24,674 nucleotides of DNA from a virus. Below the pieces are notes generated by a model that saw only the letters and a list, made by a program, of their open reading frames with translations, did no database searches and had not been told where the DNA came from. The stretch lies in the IMG/VR virus record IMGVR_UViG_3300042154_000815, positions 1-24,674 of that record; one strand, 5' to 3'. Positions 4,116 to 11,917 of this stretch are shown here, piece by piece (the stretch's first letter is position 1; every line of letters begins with the position of its first letter). A program made the translations under genes and the position numbers.

Positions 4116-4491
4116 CGGTGTGTGGTGGTCTAACACCTCATACAAGTCACGCAGTTACTGGGCTACCAGTTACACTGGTGGGTACTACAATGGCTATGCA
4201 TCTAAGGAGGACTATGACTTCTTCGAGAGAGACAAGCATCTACTGCTATCATCTGATGAATTGTTAGATGCTGACGGTACTGTCAGAACTATCTATGATG
4301 TGTGCTACCATTGCTACTCACACCTACGAGAGGACGACTACAACGAGGGTGCTTGCCTATCATGCAATACATGTATAGACTGCAACGAACACATGGCACA
4401 CTGCATGTGCTACAATCCTAACAGTACTGTTAGAAGTAACGACTACTGGTGGAAGCAAGAACAACAACAACTAGAGAAATTGGATTGGTAA
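4093..4491 (+). CDS. Cys-rich hypothetical protein
   Basis: This encodes 132 aa. The N-terminus is rich in Tyr, Trp and Ser. A Cys cluster follows with C71-C74, C88-C91-C94-C97 and C104-C106, probably binding one or two zinc ions. The spacing recalls the Cys-rich front half of the amidoligase protein, and both may belong to one complex. The first ATG (4093) overlaps the amidotransferase by 23 bp with AAGAGG 12 nt upstream; an in-frame GTG at 4120 is an alternative. Palindrome copy 6 and a degenerate copy lie inside the coding sequence. Function unknown. Confidence 0.6.
   Translation: MRRTVWADGVWWSNTSYKSRSYWATSYTGGYYNGYASKEDYDFFERDKHLLLSSDELLDADGTVRTIYDVCYHCYSHLREDDYNEGACLSCNTCIDCNEHMAHCMCYNPNSTVRSNDYWWKQEQQQLEKLDW
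4271..4286. repeat. Degenerate copy of the 16-bp palindrome
   Basis: CTGACGGTACTGTCAG matches CTAACAGTACTGTTAG at 13 of 16 positions and keeps the GTAC centre and near-dyad symmetry. It is inside the gene at 4093. It may be a weak site or chance similarity. Confidence 0.35.
4418..4433. repeat. 16-bp palindrome, copy 6
   Basis: Perfect CTAACAGTACTGTTAG within the 3' part of the gene at 4093 (read NSTVR), 60 bp upstream of the start at 4493. It is the rightmost full copy; none was seen from 4434 to 24674. Confidence 0.75.
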
Positions 4492-4492
4492 C

Positions 4493-4795
4493 ATGACCGA
4501 AACTATTAAGATTACATACGAAGTCGAGTACTTCTACGATGAGATACTCAAAGACATGTTAGCCAGTGGTGAGTATGGGCTAGGACAGTACCCCATAACT
4601 GACGAGGCTATTGTATACAATGCACTAGACAGGTTCATTAACATGAGTGGTGGTATCCCTATGATTCCATCAGCCCTTGACCAAGCAGGTGTACTCACAG
4701 TGGAAGATGATAGAGGAGAACTTCTCTACCAATTTCCAGGGTACAACACACTAGCACAGAGAGAAGATGACCATGACACGCGAACTTATGAGTGA
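4493..4795 (+). CDS. Acidic hypothetical protein
   Basis: This encodes 100 aa, acidic and mixed alpha/beta in appearance, with no Cys pairs and no recognised family. The ATG at 4493 begins two bases after the upstream stop; the Shine-Dalgarno is weak (GGATTGG at 4482-4488). Its 3' end overlaps the WhiB gene by 23 bp, so the two are probably co-translated. Confidence 0.6.
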   Translation: MTETIKITYEVEYFYDEILKDMLASGEYGLGQYPITDEAIVYNALDRFINMSGGIPMIPSALDQAGVLTVEDDRGELLYQFPGYNTLAQREDDHDTRTYE

Positions 4796-5150
4796 ACTAG
4801 AACTAATAGTTCCGGACCTAACTGATGCTGCATGCTCAGGTATGGACGGTGACATGTTCTATGACGACATGATTGCCAGTGAATCAGCCAAAGAGTACGG
4901 CAGGTACACATCAACAGCACCCAAGCAACATGCTATGCTACGCAGGGTATGTGCTAACTGTCCTGTTAAGGTTGAGTGTGCTGAGTTTGCTATCAAGCAT
5001 GAGCGGTTCGGTTTCTGGGGTGGTCTTACTGCCATGGAGAGGCACACCATACGCTCTATGAATAACATATTGTTGGAGGAAATAACCTACAACATACCAT
5101 TTACACCAATCATTAACATGAACAGAGAGGATGATAGTGATGAGTTCTAG
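4773..5150 (+). CDS. whiB: WhiB-family iron-sulfur transcription regulator
   Basis: This encodes 125 aa. The four cluster ligands are C21, C60, C63 and C69, the WhiB arrangement Cys-Xn-CxxCxxxxxC that holds an oxygen- and NO-sensitive [4Fe-4S] cluster. The FGFWGG turn (79-84) followed by LTAMER matches the GxWGG(L)xxxER signature used to contact the primary sigma factor. The C-terminus is acidic rather than strongly basic, so independent DNA binding is doubtful and it may work by gripping the host sigma. ATG 4773 is chosen over 4767, which abuts the purine-rich GAGAAG. Phage WhiB proteins are known from mycobacteriophages. This gene is the strongest sign of an actinobacterial host. Confidence 0.9.
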   Translation: MTRELMSELELIVPDLTDAACSGMDGDMFYDDMIASESAKEYGRYTSTAPKQHAMLRRVCANCPVKVECAEFAIKHERFGFWGGLTAMERHTIRSMNNILLEEITYNIPFTPIINMNREDDSDEF

Positions 5151-5654: not shown

Positions 5655-5983
5655 GAACAAGGAAGAAGGAACTCGATGCAATCTCTGATGCGCTGTCACG
5701 GCCCGCCGAATCCGTAGATGATTTAGCCAAGGATGTATGGGATTTAATAGACTCATACCGTAGAGAGAGGGATGTATACGTGGTTGGTGTTAACTACCAA
5801 GGCGTAGGACAATTCCTGTTTGGACCCTACGAGTCCGAGGCTATGGCAACTAAGGACTTCGAGGGACGTGGTAACATACAAGCACTCAAGTCCGGTGATG
5901 TAGCAAGGGTATTCAAGGTGCTTGCACCTAGTAAAATCTTTGACGACACGCCGATACAAGGTGATTTATTTGACACAAGGTAG
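5651..5983 (+). CDS. Hypothetical protein, last gene of the small-gene train
   Basis: This encodes 110 aa. Residues about 1-40 are charged and helical. Residues about 43-95 look like a small alpha/beta domain (VYVVGVNYQGVGQFLFGPY, then a conserved-looking G-rich stretch). No family recognised. It starts at the ATGA overlap with the membrane-protein gene. The -35 of the next promoter (5970-5975) is inside its last codons. Confidence 0.65.
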   Translation: MRTRKKELDAISDALSRPAESVDDLAKDVWDLIDSYRRERDVYVVGVNYQGVGQFLFGPYESEAMATKDFEGRGNIQALKSGDVARVFKVLAPSKIFDDTPIQGDLFDTR

Positions 5984-5998
5984 GTAAATCATTATACT
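5970..5998 (+). promoter_or_regulatory. Consensus sigma70-type promoter of the replication operon
   Basis: The -35 is a perfect TTGACA (5970-5975), the spacer is 17 nt, and the -10 is TATACT (5993-5998; 5 of 6). Transcription would start near 6005, just before a chain of RNA hairpins. It is the best promoter match in the window and should be read by the unmodified host polymerase. Confidence 0.8.
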
Positions 5999-6004
5999 TA
6001 GTTA

Positions 6005-6205
6005 TATACTATACAAGAAACCCCTTAAGGGTTTCAGTTATAGTTGTTCATTACTCTCCTAGTGATGGGTGGTGGGTATGTGTCAGTTCATGCTCACCAC
6101 CACAAGGCAGCACCAAGTGGTCAACGGATGATGAGGGGAAGCATCATCTATTGTTCGGGTGCAATCCCTGTTGCTGCCACGCAAGTACAACAGAAAGGAC
6201 ACAAG
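6005..6205 (+). ncRNA. Structured 5' leader, candidate riboswitch or cis-regulatory RNA
   Basis: Four elements can be drawn by eye. (a) A 7-bp hairpin, 6017-6023/6029-6035. (b) A 13-bp hairpin with two G-U pairs, 6068-6080/6089-6101, loop 6081-6088. (c) A 7-bp closing stem, GGCAGCA (6106-6112)/TGCTGCC (6172-6178), enclosing two hairpins: 6127-6133/6142-6148 (perfect 7 bp) and one near 6156-6170 whose loop TGCAATC looks like a tRNA T-loop. (d) CTGTTG (6168-6173)/CAACAG (6188-6193), which cannot coexist with (c) and ends directly before the Shine-Dalgarno AAAGGA (6194-6199). Two exclusive folds next to a ribosome site are typical of a switch. No known riboswitch class was matched, and no convincing protein start lies in the stretch. 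Confidence 0.55.
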
Positions 6206-6412
6206 ATGTCTGTGAAAATAAATGGGTATGACTTACCAAGTCACATCTCATACTCACAACTAACCACCTGGTTAGATTGTGGTTGGAAGTATTACCTATC
6301 ACGTATCGTTCAGTTGAAAGAGGACGGTTCTTGGTGGTTAGTAGGTGGCTCATCAGTTCATGAGGCTACCGAAGCCTTTGACAAGGCTATGTACGAGATT
6401 GAGGGCAAATGA
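6206..6412 (+). CDS. RecB/Cas4-like nuclease, N-terminal part
   Basis: This encodes 68 aa, equal to the front end of phage RecB/Cas4-like PD-(D/E)XK exonucleases. It carries the opening SYSQLTTWLDCGWKYYL (15-31) and the motif GGSSVHEATEAFD (47-59), whose His52 is a usual metal/active-site residue. Cys25 sits where Cas4/AddB proteins carry the lone upstream ligand of their [4Fe-4S] cluster. The frame is open from 6044, but the ATG at 6206 with AAAGGA 6 nt upstream is the real start. It stops inside the ATGA from which the catalytic half begins, so the enzyme is split. It is unlikely to be active alone. Confidence 0.78.
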   Translation: MSVKINGYDLPSHISYSQLTTWLDCGWKYYLSRIVQLKEDGSWWLVGGSSVHEATEAFDKAMYEIEGK

Positions 6413-7056
6413 GTAGCCCAACATCACCAGAAGTATTAGACGTACTGTGGAAAGATACGTGGGATAGGGTTAAAACCGCTCACGTTGCCTCTACGGGGCA
6501 GGAATCGGCACTGTGGCGCAAGGCTGGACGTACCACCAAGGCTAACCCTGACGGGGAAGATGAGACATGGTGGTTAGAAGAAGGTCGCAGGATGCTGGAC
6601 TCATGGGTTCAGTTCCGGACTGGTCAACTAGGCTGGAGTGTATGGACTACACCTGACGGTAAGCCTGCCATTGAAATCTCAATGACCCCACACATGGGGG
6701 ATGTCCCAGTCCAAATGGGTATCGACCGTGTGATGGTGACACCAGATGGTGAGTTAGTTATTGTAGACTTAAAGACTGGCAAGTACACACCATCATCAGA
6801 CCTACAGTTAGCACTGTATGCTGTGGGTATGGAGAAGACATTCGGTATCCGACCGAAGTATGGTACTTACTGGATGGCACGCAGTGGCACAACATCACCA
6901 CTGATTGACCTAGATTTCTACACTAAGAACATGATAGAGAAAATAGTTGGTGACTTCGACAGAGCACGTAAGGCTGCACTGTTCATGCCTAACTACAATC
7001 ACTGCAAGATGTGTGGATTTAAGACAGAATGCGAATGGAACAAGGAAGGAAAGTAA
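6409..7056 (+). CDS. RecB/Cas4-like PD-(D/E)XK exonuclease, catalytic part
   Basis: This encodes 215 aa. The nuclease core is visible: D106 (GIDRVMV), VDLKTG with D120 and K122, and the QxxxY motif Q133/Y137. The C-terminus has C199-C202-C208, the three clustered Cys of a Cas4/AddB-type Fe-S site; the fourth is likely Cys25 of the protein at 6206. Family members act on double-strand ends, with 5'-3' resection as in Cas4 and AddB. The gene is in the -1 frame relative to 6206 and begins at its stop (ATGA). No obvious slippery heptamer is seen, so reinitiation and assembly of two chains is more likely than frameshifting. A base error is also possible. Confidence 0.82.
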   Translation: MSSPTSPEVLDVLWKDTWDRVKTAHVASTGQESALWRKAGRTTKANPDGEDETWWLEEGRRMLDSWVQFRTGQLGWSVWTTPDGKPAIEISMTPHMGDVPVQMGIDRVMVTPDGELVIVDLKTGKYTPSSDLQLALYAVGMEKTFGIRPKYGTYWMARSGTTSPLIDLDFYTKNMIEKIVGDFDRARKAALFMPNYNHCKMCGFKTECEWNKEGK

Positions 7057-7511
7057 TGACAGAGAAAAACTATGTGGTCAATGTTAAGACTGCTAAGGGT
7101 ACAATCGTCACAGCACGTGGAGATAGTGCCGAGGAACTAATCAGTAACATCAACGCACTCGTAGCAGAGGGTGCAGCAGATGCTATCGCAACACTAGAGC
7201 AAGTACTGACGGGTATGCCATCGGTATCTCCCAGCAACAGCGCAGTCGATACAGTGGTTAATGCGCTAGGTGGCACAGTAGTAAGTGAAGCACCAACCAC
7301 TGGCTTTGCACCAGTACCACCACCGGTCAGTGCTGCACCATCCACATCGGCAGGTCAGGTATCATGCTCGCATGGTTCAATGATTGGTCGTAAGGGTAAC
7401 GGTGCTAAGGGTGAATGGAAGGGTTACTTCTGTCCAACACCTAAGGGTACGCCAGACCAGTGCCAGCCACAGTGGCTCACTAAGAAAGACGCTGCTTGGA
7501 ATAGCATCTAA
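7056..7511 (+). CDS. Hypothetical protein with C-terminal Zn-binding motif
   Basis: This encodes 151 aa in three parts. Residues about 1-55 are an alpha/beta segment, followed by a long Pro/Ala/Ser/Val-rich linker (about 56-100). The C-terminal domain has C104-x-H106, C126 and C136 around GYFCPTPKGTPDQC, which looks like a small zinc site. The ATG at 7056 overlaps the nuclease stop by one base (TAATG), with AAGGAAGGAAAG just upstream. Its place between the end-resecting nuclease and the RecA-type ATPase suggests a single-strand DNA or recombination accessory role. That is inference from context only. Confidence 0.65.
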   Translation: MTEKNYVVNVKTAKGTIVTARGDSAEELISNINALVAEGAADAIATLEQVLTGMPSVSPSNSAVDTVVNALGGTVVSEAPTTGFAPVPPPVSAAPSTSAGQVSCSHGSMIGRKGNGAKGEWKGYFCPTPKGTPDQCQPQWLTKKDAAWNSI

Positions 7512-7535: not shown

Positions 7536-8318
7536 ATGAAGACACTAATGAGAGCAGTAGGTCGCCCCGATATAGGGGGCGAGCCTATGCCACCAGTGTT
7601 TCGTGCATTTGATGAGAACCAAATCATCTTCCGTAGGGCAGAGGTCAGCATGATTGCAGGTCAGCCAGGGGCAGGTAAATCCACACTTGCCCTTGCGCTG
7701 GCCCTGCGTATGCAGGCACCAACTCTGTACCTATCAGCGGATACCAATGCACACACTATGGCAATGAGATTGTACTCAATGATTACTGGTAATTCACAAT
7801 CAGAATCAGAGAAGATAATCTCAGACAATCCAGAGCAAGCCAAGCAAGCACTAGCCCAAGCATCACACATCTACTGGTCATTCGATTCCAACCCTGGACT
7901 CGGTGACATTGACGATGAGGTAACAGCAATAGAAGAACTGTTAGGTGAATCACCTGCACTAATCATTGTAGATAACCTTATGGATGTGGCGATGGATGGT
8001 GGCGAGGAGTTTGGTGGTATGCGCTCTGCTATGAAGGAGTTGAAGTACCTTGCAAGAGATACCAATGCGGCTGTGCTTGTACTGCATCACACTAAAGAAT
8101 CCTACAGCGCAGACCCATGCCCACCACGAAGCGCAGTACAGGGAATGGTTAATCAACTACCAGCACTCATCCTTACAGTCGGACAACACCAAGAAATGAT
8201 GGCTGTTGCCCCTGTAAAGAATCGTTATGGTAAGGCTGACCCTTCCGGTAACACACCAGTGTGGCTGCGATTCAATCCTGAGTACATGTACTTGGCTGAC
8301 CTTGAGGAAGCCAGATGA
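7536..8318 (+). CDS. RecA/DnaB-type ATPase
   Basis: This encodes 260 aa with a RecA-fold core: Walker A GQPGAGKST (42-50), Walker B LIIVD (142-146) and a following VLHHT (182-186), with an SAD motif (67-69) after the second strand. It resembles the phage AAA_25/RepA-like and DnaB-C-like ATPases that act as helicases or recombinase-like motors on single-strand DNA. It lacks a primase-binding N-terminal DnaB domain, so it is a compact helicase or RecA-like protein. AGGAG lies 6 nt before the ATG. It overlaps the next nuclease gene by ATGA. Whether it is helicase or recombinase cannot be decided by eye. Confidence 0.83.
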   Translation: MKTLMRAVGRPDIGGEPMPPVFRAFDENQIIFRRAEVSMIAGQPGAGKSTLALALALRMQAPTLYLSADTNAHTMAMRLYSMITGNSQSESEKIISDNPEQAKQALAQASHIYWSFDSNPGLGDIDDEVTAIEELLGESPALIIVDNLMDVAMDGGEEFGGMRSAMKELKYLARDTNAAVLVLHHTKESYSADPCPPRSAVQGMVNQLPALILTVGQHQEMMAVAPVKNRYGKADPSGNTPVWLRFNPEYMYLADLEEAR

Positions 8319-8716: not shown

Positions 8717-8863
8717 ATGAGAAAGAAAAAGATTAAGTGTAACCAATGTCATCAAGAACAAGAGACAACCACAATCTTTATTCACATTGTTGAGTGCGAT
8801 AGAAATGTAAGGCACTATGCAAGGCAACTCATTGCCGAACTGGAACGAGAACTACGTGAGTAA
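8717..8863 (+). CDS. Small basic protein with CxxC
   Basis: This encodes 48 aa, with a basic N-terminus (MRKKKIK) and C8-x2-C11. A single later Cys27 and a helical, Arg/Glu-rich C-terminus follow. GGAGAGGA (8703-8710) is 6 nt upstream of the ATG, a strong initiation site. It overlaps the next gene by 8 bp. Function unknown. Confidence 0.6.
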   Translation: MRKKKIKCNQCHQEQETTTIFIHIVECDRNVRHYARQLIAELERELRE

Positions 8864-9191
8864 GAGTAAACAAAAGGGTACGTCAGCAGAAACCGCTGTA
8901 GTTAATTGGCTAATAAGTAAGGGACGTAAACATGTGGAAAGACGAGCACTCTCCGGTCTTCTTGACAGGGGCGACATTGCTGGTATCCCTGCTGTTGTTA
9001 TTGAGGTAAAGAACCATCAGCGCATGGAACTCTCAGCATGGCTGAAAGAGTTAGACGTTGAGATGCACAATGACAAGGCAGATACTGGTGTGGTTATACA
9101 CAAGAAGAAGGGTACTACCGATGTTGGCATGTGGTATGCCACAATGCCAGTAAGTGTATGGTATAAACTAATAGGGGAAGCAGGGTACTAG
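8856..9191 (+). CDS. Holliday-junction-resolvase-like PD-(D/E)XK nuclease
   Basis: This encodes 111 aa. The pattern is that of the Hjc-like resolvases: KGTSAET with Glu12, then DRGDIAGIP with Asp40, then VVIEVKN with Glu50 and Lys52. A helix and a final strand (TGVVIHKKKG) follow. Such enzymes cut branched DNA during phage recombination and packaging. An upstream ATG at 8817 is in frame, but the GTG at 8856 gives the family-like N-terminus MSKSKQKGTSAE and only an 8-bp overlap with the previous gene. The Shine-Dalgarno for it is weak (GGAACGAG). It ends on the GTG of the primase gene. Confidence 0.75.
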   Translation: MSKSKQKGTSAETAVVNWLISKGRKHVERRALSGLLDRGDIAGIPAVVIEVKNHQRMELSAWLKELDVEMHNDKADTGVVIHKKKGTTDVGMWYATMPVSVWYKLIGEAGY

Positions 9192-9568
9192 TGGATAAGC
9201 ATAGCATCTTGGCTGTGCTTGAGCATTATGGTGGGTCAATCTATCGTGAGCGTAATGGGTGGCAGAAACTTAAGTGTCCATTCCACGATGACTCACATGC
9301 ATCAGCCACAGTTAACATAGAAGAGAACGCATTCAATTGCTTTGGGTGTGGCATTAAAGGTGACACCTACAAAATCATTATGGAGAAGGAAGGAATAGAG
9401 TTTCGTGAAGCAGTCAAGGTCGCAGAAGGAATCACTGGGCAGAGCAGTAGTGCACTACGCAAAGTACATAGCGGAGGCAGAGGGGTATCTAGCAAGTCGG
9501 GGAATCACCTTAGCAGACGCGCATACAGCCCACCTGGGCTTGGTCGTAGAGCCTCTACCAGGCCATGA
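9191..9568 (+). CDS. DNA primase, CHC2 zinc-finger half
   Basis: This encodes 125 aa. C29-x2-H32 (CPFH) and C50-x2-C53 (CFGC) form the CHC2-type zinc finger of DnaG primases, flanked by the usual GW and NCFGC...GD residues. The finger recognises template for primer synthesis. The rest of a primase (TOPRIM) is on the next ORF in another frame, overlapping this one by 164 nt. The last 40 or so residues here are basic, low-complexity and Ser/Gly/Arg-rich; they may be a real tail or a frame read past a switch point. The start is GTG 9191, one base into the previous stop. Confidence 0.82.
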   Translation: MDKHSILAVLEHYGGSIYRERNGWQKLKCPFHDDSHASATVNIEENAFNCFGCGIKGDTYKIIMEKEGIEFREAVKVAEGITGQSSSALRKVHSGGRGVSSKSGNHLSRRAYSPPGLGRRASTRP

Positions 9569-10022
9569 ACAGTTCGTTGGTAGGCTAGCCATACCTTACC
9601 TCACACCTACTGGTGTGGTGGACATTAGGTTCCGTTCTATTAACGGAGAAGAACCTAAGTACATGGGCATGTCTGGTAGTGAGACAAGGTTATACAATGT
9701 AGCAGCAATCGGTCAGGCAACTGACTTCATAGCAGTATGTGAAGGAGAGATAGATGCAATCACGCTCACGCAAAAGTGTGGTATCCCGGCAATTGGGGTT
9801 CCTGGTGCTAACTCGTGGAAAAGACATTACTCGAAACTCTTACAAGACTTCGAGCGTATCTATGTCTTTGCGGATGGTGACCAGCCAGGCTCGGACTTTG
9901 GTAAGAAACTGGCGAGAGAAGTTCAGGGAGTTATTGTAATCAATATGCCAGACGGTGAAGATGTTAATAGTATATTCAATAAACAAGGAACAGAGTTCTT
10001 TAGGGAGAAGGTAGCGGCATGA
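9405..10022 (+). CDS. DNA primase, TOPRIM half
   Basis: This encodes 205 aa. The TOPRIM signature is present: VCEGEIDA with Glu113 and Asp117, then FADGD with Asp147 and Asp149. Strand GIPAIGVPG lies between them. It binds Mg2+ for primer nucleotide transfer. The N-terminal region (HYAKYIAEAEGYLASRG) looks like genuine primase sequence, so the frame must be used from about 9450 onward. The GTG at 9405 has a purine-rich block (9383-9400) upstream and could start translation by itself. The frame is +1 relative to the zinc-finger ORF. No helicase domain is attached. Overlaps the next gene by ATGA. Confidence 0.82.
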   Translation: MKQSRSQKESLGRAVVHYAKYIAEAEGYLASRGITLADAHTAHLGLVVEPLPGHEQFVGRLAIPYLTPTGVVDIRFRSINGEEPKYMGMSGSETRLYNVAAIGQATDFIAVCEGEIDAITLTQKCGIPAIGVPGANSWKRHYSKLLQDFERIYVFADGDQPGSDFGKKLAREVQGVIVINMPDGEDVNSIFNKQGTEFFREKVAA

Positions 10023-10500: not shown

Positions 10501-11259
10501 ATGAAGCGTATCGTAGTACTATCAGACATGCAAATACCGTATCAAGATAAGCGTGCAACTCGTGCAGTTATGAACTTTGTTGCAGACTACGAACCAGATG
10601 AGTTGTTCTGTGTAGGTGATGAGGCTGATAGCCCAGAACCATCACGTTGGAACAAGGGTTTGGCTGGAGAGTTTGAAGGAACTCTACAGAAAGGTCTAGA
10701 CGAAACAACAAGAATCATGACAGGGTTCAAGGAAGCACTAGGCGACAAGCCATTCCATACGATGAGGAGTAATCACGGTGACAGAATCCAGAACTATGTA
10801 TCGAGATATGCGCCAGCCCTCTCATCATTACGAGACCTTGAGTATAGCAAACTGCTTAGGTATCGTGAGAACGAAATTACGTATCACGATAAGTTCTATT
10901 CCTTCTCTCCAGGCTGGGTACTGGCACACGGCGATGAAGGTAGAGCCAACAAACAACCTGGTGGCACTGCTCTTACCCTTGCTAAACAAATTGGGGCTTC
11001 AGTTATTTGTGGTCACACCCACAAGCAGGGCATACAACACGAGCACACTGGGTTCGGCGGTACTATTAAGCACCGACTCTATGGTGTGGAGGTTGGTCAT
11101 CTCATGGACATATCGCAAGCGCACTATCTCGGACAGACTGGTGCTAACTGGCAACAAGGGTTTACTATACTCTATACACGTAGAGGAAATGTAACACCTG
11201 TTAACGTGCCAATCAATGGCCGTTCCTTTGTCGTTGAGGGTAAAGTTTATGAGTTCTAA
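10501..11259 (+). CDS. Calcineurin-like metallophosphoesterase
   Basis: This encodes 252 aa with the five metallophosphoesterase motifs in order: SDMQIP (Asp9), VGDEAD (Asp40), SNHGDR (Asn91-His92), AHGDEG (His143) and GHTHKQ (His172, His174). These bind two metal ions and hydrolyse phosphomono- or diesters. The usual His of motif I (DxH) is Gln11, a substitution seen in some phage members that may change metal site 1. AAGGAAAC precedes the ATG. Lying between DUF1599-like and sigma-like genes, it could be a DNA/RNA phosphatase, 2',3'-cyclic phosphodiesterase or nucleotidase; the sequence does not decide. Confidence 0.85.
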   Translation: MKRIVVLSDMQIPYQDKRATRAVMNFVADYEPDELFCVGDEADSPEPSRWNKGLAGEFEGTLQKGLDETTRIMTGFKEALGDKPFHTMRSNHGDRIQNYVSRYAPALSSLRDLEYSKLLRYRENEITYHDKFYSFSPGWVLAHGDEGRANKQPGGTALTLAKQIGASVICGHTHKQGIQHEHTGFGGTIKHRLYGVEVGHLMDISQAHYLGQTGANWQQGFTILYTRRGNVTPVNVPINGRSFVVEGKVYEF

Positions 11260-11917
11260 TGATAATTTTGTCCAAGAGTATGAAGGTATGGTTCGACAGA
11301 TTGCATCCGAATATCATCGCAAGTATCCAATGGTGGAGAAAGCAGATTTAGAGCAAGAGATTTGGTTGTGGTTCGTTCAACACCCACGCAAGATGGAAGA
11401 GTGGACAACTAATCATGAGTCGAAAGACTCTGACAAGTTGATTGCTCGCTCCCTCCGGAATGCATCGCATGACTATTGCATCAAGGAAAAGGCGCGAGTA
11501 GAAGGATACGCACCAGACGATGTGTTCTTCTACAAGAAGGAGTTCATCAAGATGATGATTCCTGCTGTGCTATCTGATGACTGGCAGAAGGTAGAGAACA
11601 GCATGGCTAACATGGGGCGTACAATGAAAGCCCCGTCTGAGTCAGGTGACTTCATGGCTTATGCTGCGGATATCAAGAAAGCATTCGAGGAACTCGAAGA
11701 GAAAGAACAGAACCTAGTGTTCTTGTTCTATGGTGAGGATGTTGATTCAAAGACACTTCATGAGATGGTTAACAATGAACGACCAACTGCTAGGGCTACA
11801 GCAATGGCAGCCAATCGTGCACTAAACAAGATGGTCAGAAAACTAGGTGGCTTCGCACCACAGAGAGACAATGACTATGTTCAGCAAGAGGAAGTTGTGG
11901 TAGATGATTTGCAGTGA
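11249..11917 (+). CDS. Sigma-factor-like transcription regulator
   Basis: This encodes 222 aa. Residues about 8-45 resemble sigma region 2 (KADLEQEIWLWFVQHP). Residues about 145-205 resemble region 4 (FEELEEKEQNLVFLFYGED, then a helix-turn-helix-like SKTLHEMVNNERPTARAT followed by a basic helix). The 85 residues between are atypical. Phage sigma-like proteins often switch transcription to late genes, and this gene ends the early arm, so the leftward late operon is a natural target. ATG 11249 (GAGGG 8 nt upstream) was chosen over 11216 because it overlaps the phosphoesterase by only 11 bp. Confidence 0.65.
   Translation: MSSNDNFVQEYEGMVRQIASEYHRKYPMVEKADLEQEIWLWFVQHPRKMEEWTTNHESKDSDKLIARSLRNASHDYCIKEKARVEGYAPDDVFFYKKEFIKMMIPAVLSDDWQKVENSMANMGRTMKAPSESGDFMAYAADIKKAFEELEEKEQNLVFLFYGEDVDSKTLHEMVNNERPTARATAMAANRALNKMVRKLGGFAPQRDNDYVQQEEVVVDDLQ

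Follow-up and report, generated by a model that had tools for sequence, protein, structure and literature searches.

The stretch of DNA analysed here, an IMG/VR virus record of 24,674 bases that we refer to as the window, contains a replication operon preceded by a leader, with small early genes 5′ of that leader (Table 1). The leader sits between a promoter at 5970–5998 and the ORF1 start codon at 6206. In agreement with the initial annotation this promoter is the top sigma-70-like match in the window, where the count of promoter-like sites is not above that of shuffles, and the leader transcript is expected from the sequence to start near 6005. ORF1 and ORF2 encode the two parts of one PD-(D/E)XK exonuclease and overlap in an ATGA. 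Planktophila phage LanE43AprE7 (L239 1332–2109) also has the split, and translational coupling or frameshifting is possible. Farther along the operon, the primase zinc-ribbon (9191–9568) and Toprim (9405–10022) lie in overlapping ORFs in different frames, which may reflect a split gene, a frameshift or an assembly error. A small ORF at 7029–7511 shows, in its C-terminal part, a weak match to class II ribonucleotide reductase (phrog_364, E 6e-4), probably only to the tail of such an enzyme.

The early region has features of its own. The predicted product of 4767–5150 is WhiB-like, pointing to an actinobacterial host. A perfect 16-bp palindrome, CTAACAGTACTGTTAG, recurs in five exact copies, one with one mismatch and two with three (0.27 expected by chance), and looks like an operator; the product of 486–1064 has a helix-turn-helix-like stretch.

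The leader consists of three hairpins, H1 to H3, followed by a 73-nt element that holds a further hairpin, P2, and a T-loop-like arm. The initial annotation had described a 13-bp hairpin (our H3), a closure by GGCAGCA/TGCTGCC around a T-loop-like TGCAATC, and a rival hairpin ending right before the Shine-Dalgarno sequence (SD); each is present, the closed element measuring exactly 73 nt, the TGCAATC lying at 6160–6166 and the rival hairpin core (6168–6173/6188–6193) directly preceding AAAGGA. We found that the whole leader folds at −71.8 kcal/mol versus −53.7 for shuffles (z −4.5), beating 200 of 200 dinucleotide shuffles. It is the 5′ half that supplies the stability signal (z −6.0). Taken by itself, the core is not unusually stable compared with shuffles (z −1.05), and hence the case for it depends on how it is conserved and covaries and not on stability. 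The SD and start codon (6197–6213) can also make a small hairpin, GGACA/UGUCU; its counterpart in L022, L023 and L026 is GGACAC/GUGUCU, with GUG as the start codon.

Table 1. Features of the window and of Planktophila-group loci (handles beginning with L denote related loci; other positions are those of the window).
Feature	Position	Strand	Basis or remark
Palindrome CTAACAGTACTGTTAG, copies	282–297, 1129–1144, 1286–1301, 1502–1517, 2363–2378, 4271–4286, 4418–4433, 4954–4969
Promoter TTGACA-17-TATACT	5970–5998	+	11/12 consensus match; TTGAC[A/T] and, 17 nt on, a −10-like hexamer readable in aligned relatives
H1, 5′-terminal hairpin (CUAUA/UAUAG outer, GAAACCC/GGGUUUC inner)	6009–6043	+	A-U to G-C compensatory change in 3/16 relatives
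H2 hairpin, loop CUCCU at 6056–6060	6049–6067	+	19/19 positions invariant; UACUCUCCU common to anti-SD hairpin of Planktophila phage relatives
H3, 13-bp hairpin (6068–6080/6089–6101)	6068–6101	+	One pair changed on both sides; three others changed on one side only, with pairing kept
73-nt element closed by GGCAGCA (6106–6112)/UGCUGCC (6172–6178)	6106–6178	+	Both strands invariant, no covariation
Alternative helix GCACC (6110–6114)/GGUGC (6158–6162), with rival hairpin in open fold	6110–6162	+	Minimum-energy fold of most variants
P2 hairpin GGAUGAUG/CAUCAUCU, loop AGGGGAAG at 6134–6141	6126–6149	+	G-C to A-U compensatory change at two pairs; 8/8 loop positions invariant
T-loop-like hairpin CGGG-UGCAAUC-CCUG	6156–6170	+	Invariant except last loop position in L009
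Rival hairpin UCC-CUGUUG (6165–6173)/CAACAG-AAA-GGA (6188–6199), covers SD	6165–6199	+	143/144 cells pair, 16 relatives
SD AAAGGA of ORF1	6194–6199	+	Sequence; spacing to ATG 6206
ORF1, N-terminal part of PD-(D/E)XK exonuclease	6206–6412	+	PF12705 positions 1–50, phrog_1870
ORF2, C-terminal part of same exonuclease	6409–7056	+	PF12705 positions 83–246, phrog_1870
DnaB-like helicase	7536–8318		Replication operon
RusA-like resolvase	8817–9191		Replication operon
Primase parts	9191–10022		Replication operon
Metallophosphoesterase	10501–11259		Replication operon
Sigma-like factor	11216–11917		Replication operon
Planktophila-group leader hairpin, 18-bp covarying stem, loop CUCCUGUC	L240–L319 (e.g. 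L250 about 1740–1830)
Second Planktophila-group hairpin, loop GGGGAAG	L308 2263–2344; L290 3022–3108; L280 3018–3100; L276 3025–3105

Conservation and covariation within the clade

A relative of the exonuclease is encoded at 42 loci, about 20 of which, mostly 92–100% identical in that protein, share the leader of the window. Among 16 distinct leaders of this clade the arrangement of H1, H2, H3 and the closing stem enclosing P2 and the T-loop arm pairs in 99.0% of cells. Compensatory changes occur at two pairs of P2 and at a single pair each of H1 and H3, four in all, with nine cells changed on both sides; all slid controls gave zero, and the score was reached by 0 of 500 shuffles. The closing stem and the T-loop arm show no covariation, as their strands almost never vary among these relatives. 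Locus L009 has C to A at the last T-loop position and keeps both the stem CGGG/CCUG and the register.

Constraint was assessed against the four-fold degenerate sites of ORF2 in 18 relatives, of which 40/77 are invariant. In the core (6105–6184) 70/80 sites are invariant (Fisher p 1.5e-6), the same comparison for H2 gives p 3e-5, and the segment from the T-loop arm through ACGCAAG is invariant at 33 of 34 positions. Besides the compensatory changes in H1, H3 and P2, unpaired nucleotides are constrained above neutral sites. Such constraint is typical of RNA with recognition or tertiary contacts and unlike that of a mere stabilising hairpin. A passive structured 5′ UTR, with hairpins that do not switch and that serve mRNA stability or insulation from upstream transcription, would agree with the strong hairpin found directly after the promoter in every lineage and with fast sequence turnover under a kept structure. 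This reading leaves the invariant loops and the invariant 34-nt T-arm and closing segment unexplained, and we consider it unlikely.

The transcript strand pairs better than its complement, at 821 versus 752 of 829 cells, with frequent G-U pairs, which argues that the selected structure is that of the transcript rather than of the DNA or the antisense strand. The location directly before the replication operon and the high conservation could also suit an element that acts as DNA, for example a replication origin or a packaging site, but the strand preference counts against it, as do the placement of the sequence between promoter and SD and a GC skew that does not turn here; such an element has only a slim chance of being the explanation. 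A leader peptide or an N-terminal extension of ORF1, for which the window is open from TTG 6044, was rejected: relatives differ by indels whose lengths are not divisible by three, so that the frame is lost from one to another, and the leader is therefore not coding.

The initial annotation had also considered a tRNA-like regulator, while remarking that a proper D-arm and anticodon loop were lacking. The tRNA reading is not supported. Its attractions are the length of 73 nt, the 7-bp closing stem, a GG in the D-loop-like AAGUGGUC, the T-loop GUGCAAUCC and an L009 variant that keeps the tRNA register. However, ARAGORN found 0 genes and RF00005 gave no match at E up to 10, the P2 loop AGGGGAAG is 8 nt without a U33, the closing stem is followed by ACGCA and not CCA, and there is no real D-stem, none being kept in relatives (CC/AG in most). 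A decayed or disguised tRNA is hardly credible. Compared across relatives, the sequences support the H1, H3 and P2 helices, strong constraint on the loops and folding at the level of the plus-strand RNA, and we conclude that the leader is very probably a conserved, functional RNA. The earlier description of it as structured and probably regulatory is borne out by the compensatory changes, the strand-specific G-U pairs, an invariance above that of synonymous sites, and the structured leaders of sister phages.

Predicted alternative folds at the Shine-Dalgarno sequence

The closed element and the rival hairpin use overlapping strands. In the rival form UCC-CUGUUG lies on CAACAG-AAA-GGA and hides the SD, with UCC 6165–6167 adding pairs to the SD GGA (6197–6199) beyond the hairpin core, and GCACC pairs with GGUGC. 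The two folds lie within ~3 kcal/mol of each other in every relative, so that energies do not separate them, and random RNA, too, often has folds in such close balance. Predicted shares of closed and rival forms vary widely among relatives (closed 0.01–0.96). Growing-chain folding of the window predicts GCACC/GGUGC first, the closed element next, and the rival hairpin only once the SD has been made. The sole variation in the rival helix consists of C to U changes that turn G-C to G-U and keep the pairing regardless. As the closing stem is invariant and the rival helix varies only in this way, covariation proves neither fold; the two exclusive folds of the initial annotation hold up in their geometry and do not gain covariation support. 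Since the core is also not above shuffles in stability, we infer from modelled folds, and do not claim as established, that the leader switches between them.

The loops offer a second set of contacts. CUCCU in H2 (6056–6060) and AGGGG in P2 (6134–6138) are complementary at −5.5 kcal/mol, and 119 of 20,000 random same-length loop pairs are as strong. A kissing contact would account for the invariance of both loops, and we regard it as plausible, if somewhat short of probable. For the window clade we rejected the idea that the H2 loop itself pairs with the SD: the match is just 4 bp and not significant, and SD complementarity of leader segments is not above shuffles (229/500).

We propose that the leader would either cover the SD of ORF1 or leave it accessible, and would in this way control translation of the first genes in the replication operon of the phage. 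Protection of the 5′ end is the probable role of H1. In the putative OFF form UCCCUGUUG would pair with CAACAG-AAA-GGA and cover the SD; in the putative ON form the 73-nt element would take up the same strand in its closing stem and T-loop arm, leaving the SD free. The pyrimidine loop of H2 and the purine loop AGGGGAAG of P2 may dock through five or six pairs. ORF2 would follow by translational coupling through its overlap with ORF1, and the balance of folds would be moved by some factor, be it a protein of the phage or of its host, a further RNA or a metabolite. For a cis-acting RNA controlling ORF1 translation through SD occlusion we see the case for and against as about equal. The assignment of the closed element to the ON state is more tentative, and the coupling of ORF1 to ORF2 is likewise putative.

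Leaders of sister phages and of the Planktophila group

Where the exonuclease is ~80% identical or less, an unrelated leader sequence stands at the same place. The initial annotation had looked to unrelated or unpaired leaders without covarying stems in related phages as evidence against its reading. The outcome is mixed: unrelated sequences do appear at that distance, but inside the clade the stems covary. All six sister leaders tested are strongly structured (z −2.9 to −7.1), and every sister lineage has a strong hairpin close to the transcript start, as H1 is in the window. The leader sequence thus turns over while the structure stays. The lineages at 80% and 70% identity (L022, L026) have a common hairpin loop, UUUACUCCUUUC, on differing stems, and this loop can pair with their own SD over 7–8 bp, weakly above shuffles. 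Pattern scans of viral and genome contigs found the window leader in its own clade only, and model R1, run on the sister records, 100 further viral loci and 296 actinobacterial-phylum genomes, the phylum being that of an Eggerthellaceae MAG, found none beyond that clade; a weak genome hit (L238) looked like chance.

The best match in annotated collections is OX376640, Planktophila phage LanE43AprE7, an isolated phage of 39.1 kbp that infects 'Ca. Planktophila' LanE-43 (PMC10202952). Its relatives comprise 305 matching stretches, and in the 80 of 305 analysed we found a leader hairpin with compensatory changes at eight pairs and an invariant loop segment CUCCUGUC. The first gene has GACAGGAG or GACAGGGG as its SD, which this loop complements over 8–9 bp, and SD variants found with the covariance model, GACGGGAG and GAUAGGAG, still pair with it via G-U. 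For each leader taken singly, 2–20 of 500 shuffles compare with the observed complementarity. A second hairpin lies ~1.4 kb downstream, in most loci before a DnaB-like gene; its GGGGAAG loop is invariant, seven of its pairs show compensatory change, and the same SD, GACAGGAG, follows. Neither hairpin has a convincing Rfam match.

Both loops recur in the window. H2 shares UACUCUCCU with the first Planktophila-group hairpin, and the loop of P2, AGGGGAAG, recurs in 49 distinct second hairpins; these are short motifs of 7–9 nt, and homology is only a candidate explanation. GGGGAAG matches in L022, L026, L030–L038 and L042 appear inside reading frames and were set aside. The two motifs are joined in the single leader of the window, and in the Planktophila-group phages they are on separate hairpins. 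Like the second hairpins, P2 carries its invariant loop upstream of a replication gene; unlike the first hairpins, the window lacks an 8–9 bp match between loop and SD (best 4 bp), and model R2 misses it. With so weak a match of the H2 loop to the SD, the window clade has not kept the SD-loop design exactly as its relatives have it. We read this as a leader that still hides the SD and has kept the loops, with the SD-facing strand shifted into the 73-nt element. A more speculative view, which we think on balance improbable, is that freshwater actinobacterial phages share a portable loop pair, in which a pyrimidine loop opposes the SD and a purine loop mimics it, and that pairing of these loops with one another or with the SD times the translation of replication genes, the window clade having fused both with a new 73-nt switch domain.

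Phages can autoregulate replication proteins, and CUCCU and AGGGGAAG could instead form an operator for an RNA-binding phage protein, such as a product of the replication operon, or for a host protein, repressing or activating translation. The loops are invariant while the stems under P2 and H3 vary, and the same two loop motifs stand on unrelated stems before replication genes elsewhere, as would be the case for a recognition element. The loops nevertheless complement each other and, in relatives, the SD, so that RNA pairing alone suffices for their conservation, and no candidate protein was found. We hold an operator to be rather unlikely and continue to favour control by RNA folding.

Comparison with known RNAs

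The leader falls in no catalogued RNA family. Rfam 15 gave 0 gathering-score matches in the whole window and none for the leader at E up to 10, and a literature search, with subscription papers mostly outside its reach, returned no description of the window leader or of the Planktophila-group hairpin. Cyanophage 5′ UTRs carry the structured manA and wcaG RNAs before metabolic genes (PMC2864571). Those RNAs and the window leader are alike as structured RNAs of phage 5′ UTRs, and the leader has no Rfam match to either.

A local likeness to the cobalamin riboswitch (RF00174) consists of GGGGAA, the T-loop GGUGCAAUCC and GCUGCCACGCAA in the same order. In the window, however, GGGGAA is in a closed hairpin loop, the L4-like loop is one base shorter, and P5, P6 and the B12 box are absent. 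This candidate was rejected, since there is no RF00174 match at E up to 10 and none to a profile built from 11 genuine cobalamin cores, and the topology differs. The new riboswitch suggested by the initial annotation is possible in principle, but nothing points to a ligand. In such a metabolite riboswitch the 73-nt element and its invariant joining segments would be a small-molecule aptamer, and it would draw on the invariant unpaired blocks AAGUGGU, AGGGGAAG and ACGCAAG and on the T-loop together with a rival hairpin resembling an expression platform at the SD. Aptamers are normally common to cellular genes too, and this leader was not found outside its clade or among the 296 sampled actinobacterial-phylum genomes; none of the riboswitch families in Rfam matches at E up to 10, and the controlled genes serve replication without a metabolic theme. 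We judge it very improbable. Translational riboswitches such as SAM-II and the preQ1 type occlude the SD via alternative folds, and the window leader resembles them in its predicted alternative folds, one of which would lie over the SD. It differs in having no ligand and no family match, in being clade-specific and in its place before phage replication genes. If the proposed switch is right, the leader would operate in the manner of such riboswitches or of protein-bound leaders, and we do not assign it to any named family.

Little is known of gene timing in phages of the abundant freshwater Nanopelagicales, and the leader provides an uncatalogued RNA element before a replication operon with clear, testable base pairs. 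The portable loop pair, if true, would be a distinct phage route to translation control by RNA only. The related element of LanE43AprE7 is simpler and belongs to an isolated phage whose host is in culture (PMC10202952), so that the pairing of SD and loop is directly testable there. Its leader has the same gene order, leading to the small and then the large part of the split exonuclease, as well as a hairpin after an A+T-rich start, the loop sequence UACUCUCCU and predicted SD occlusion. In LanE43AprE7 the loop CUCCUGUC pairs with the SD GACAGGAG directly, whereas the window carries the loop on a short invariant hairpin, has the additional 73-nt element, and turns another strand toward the SD.
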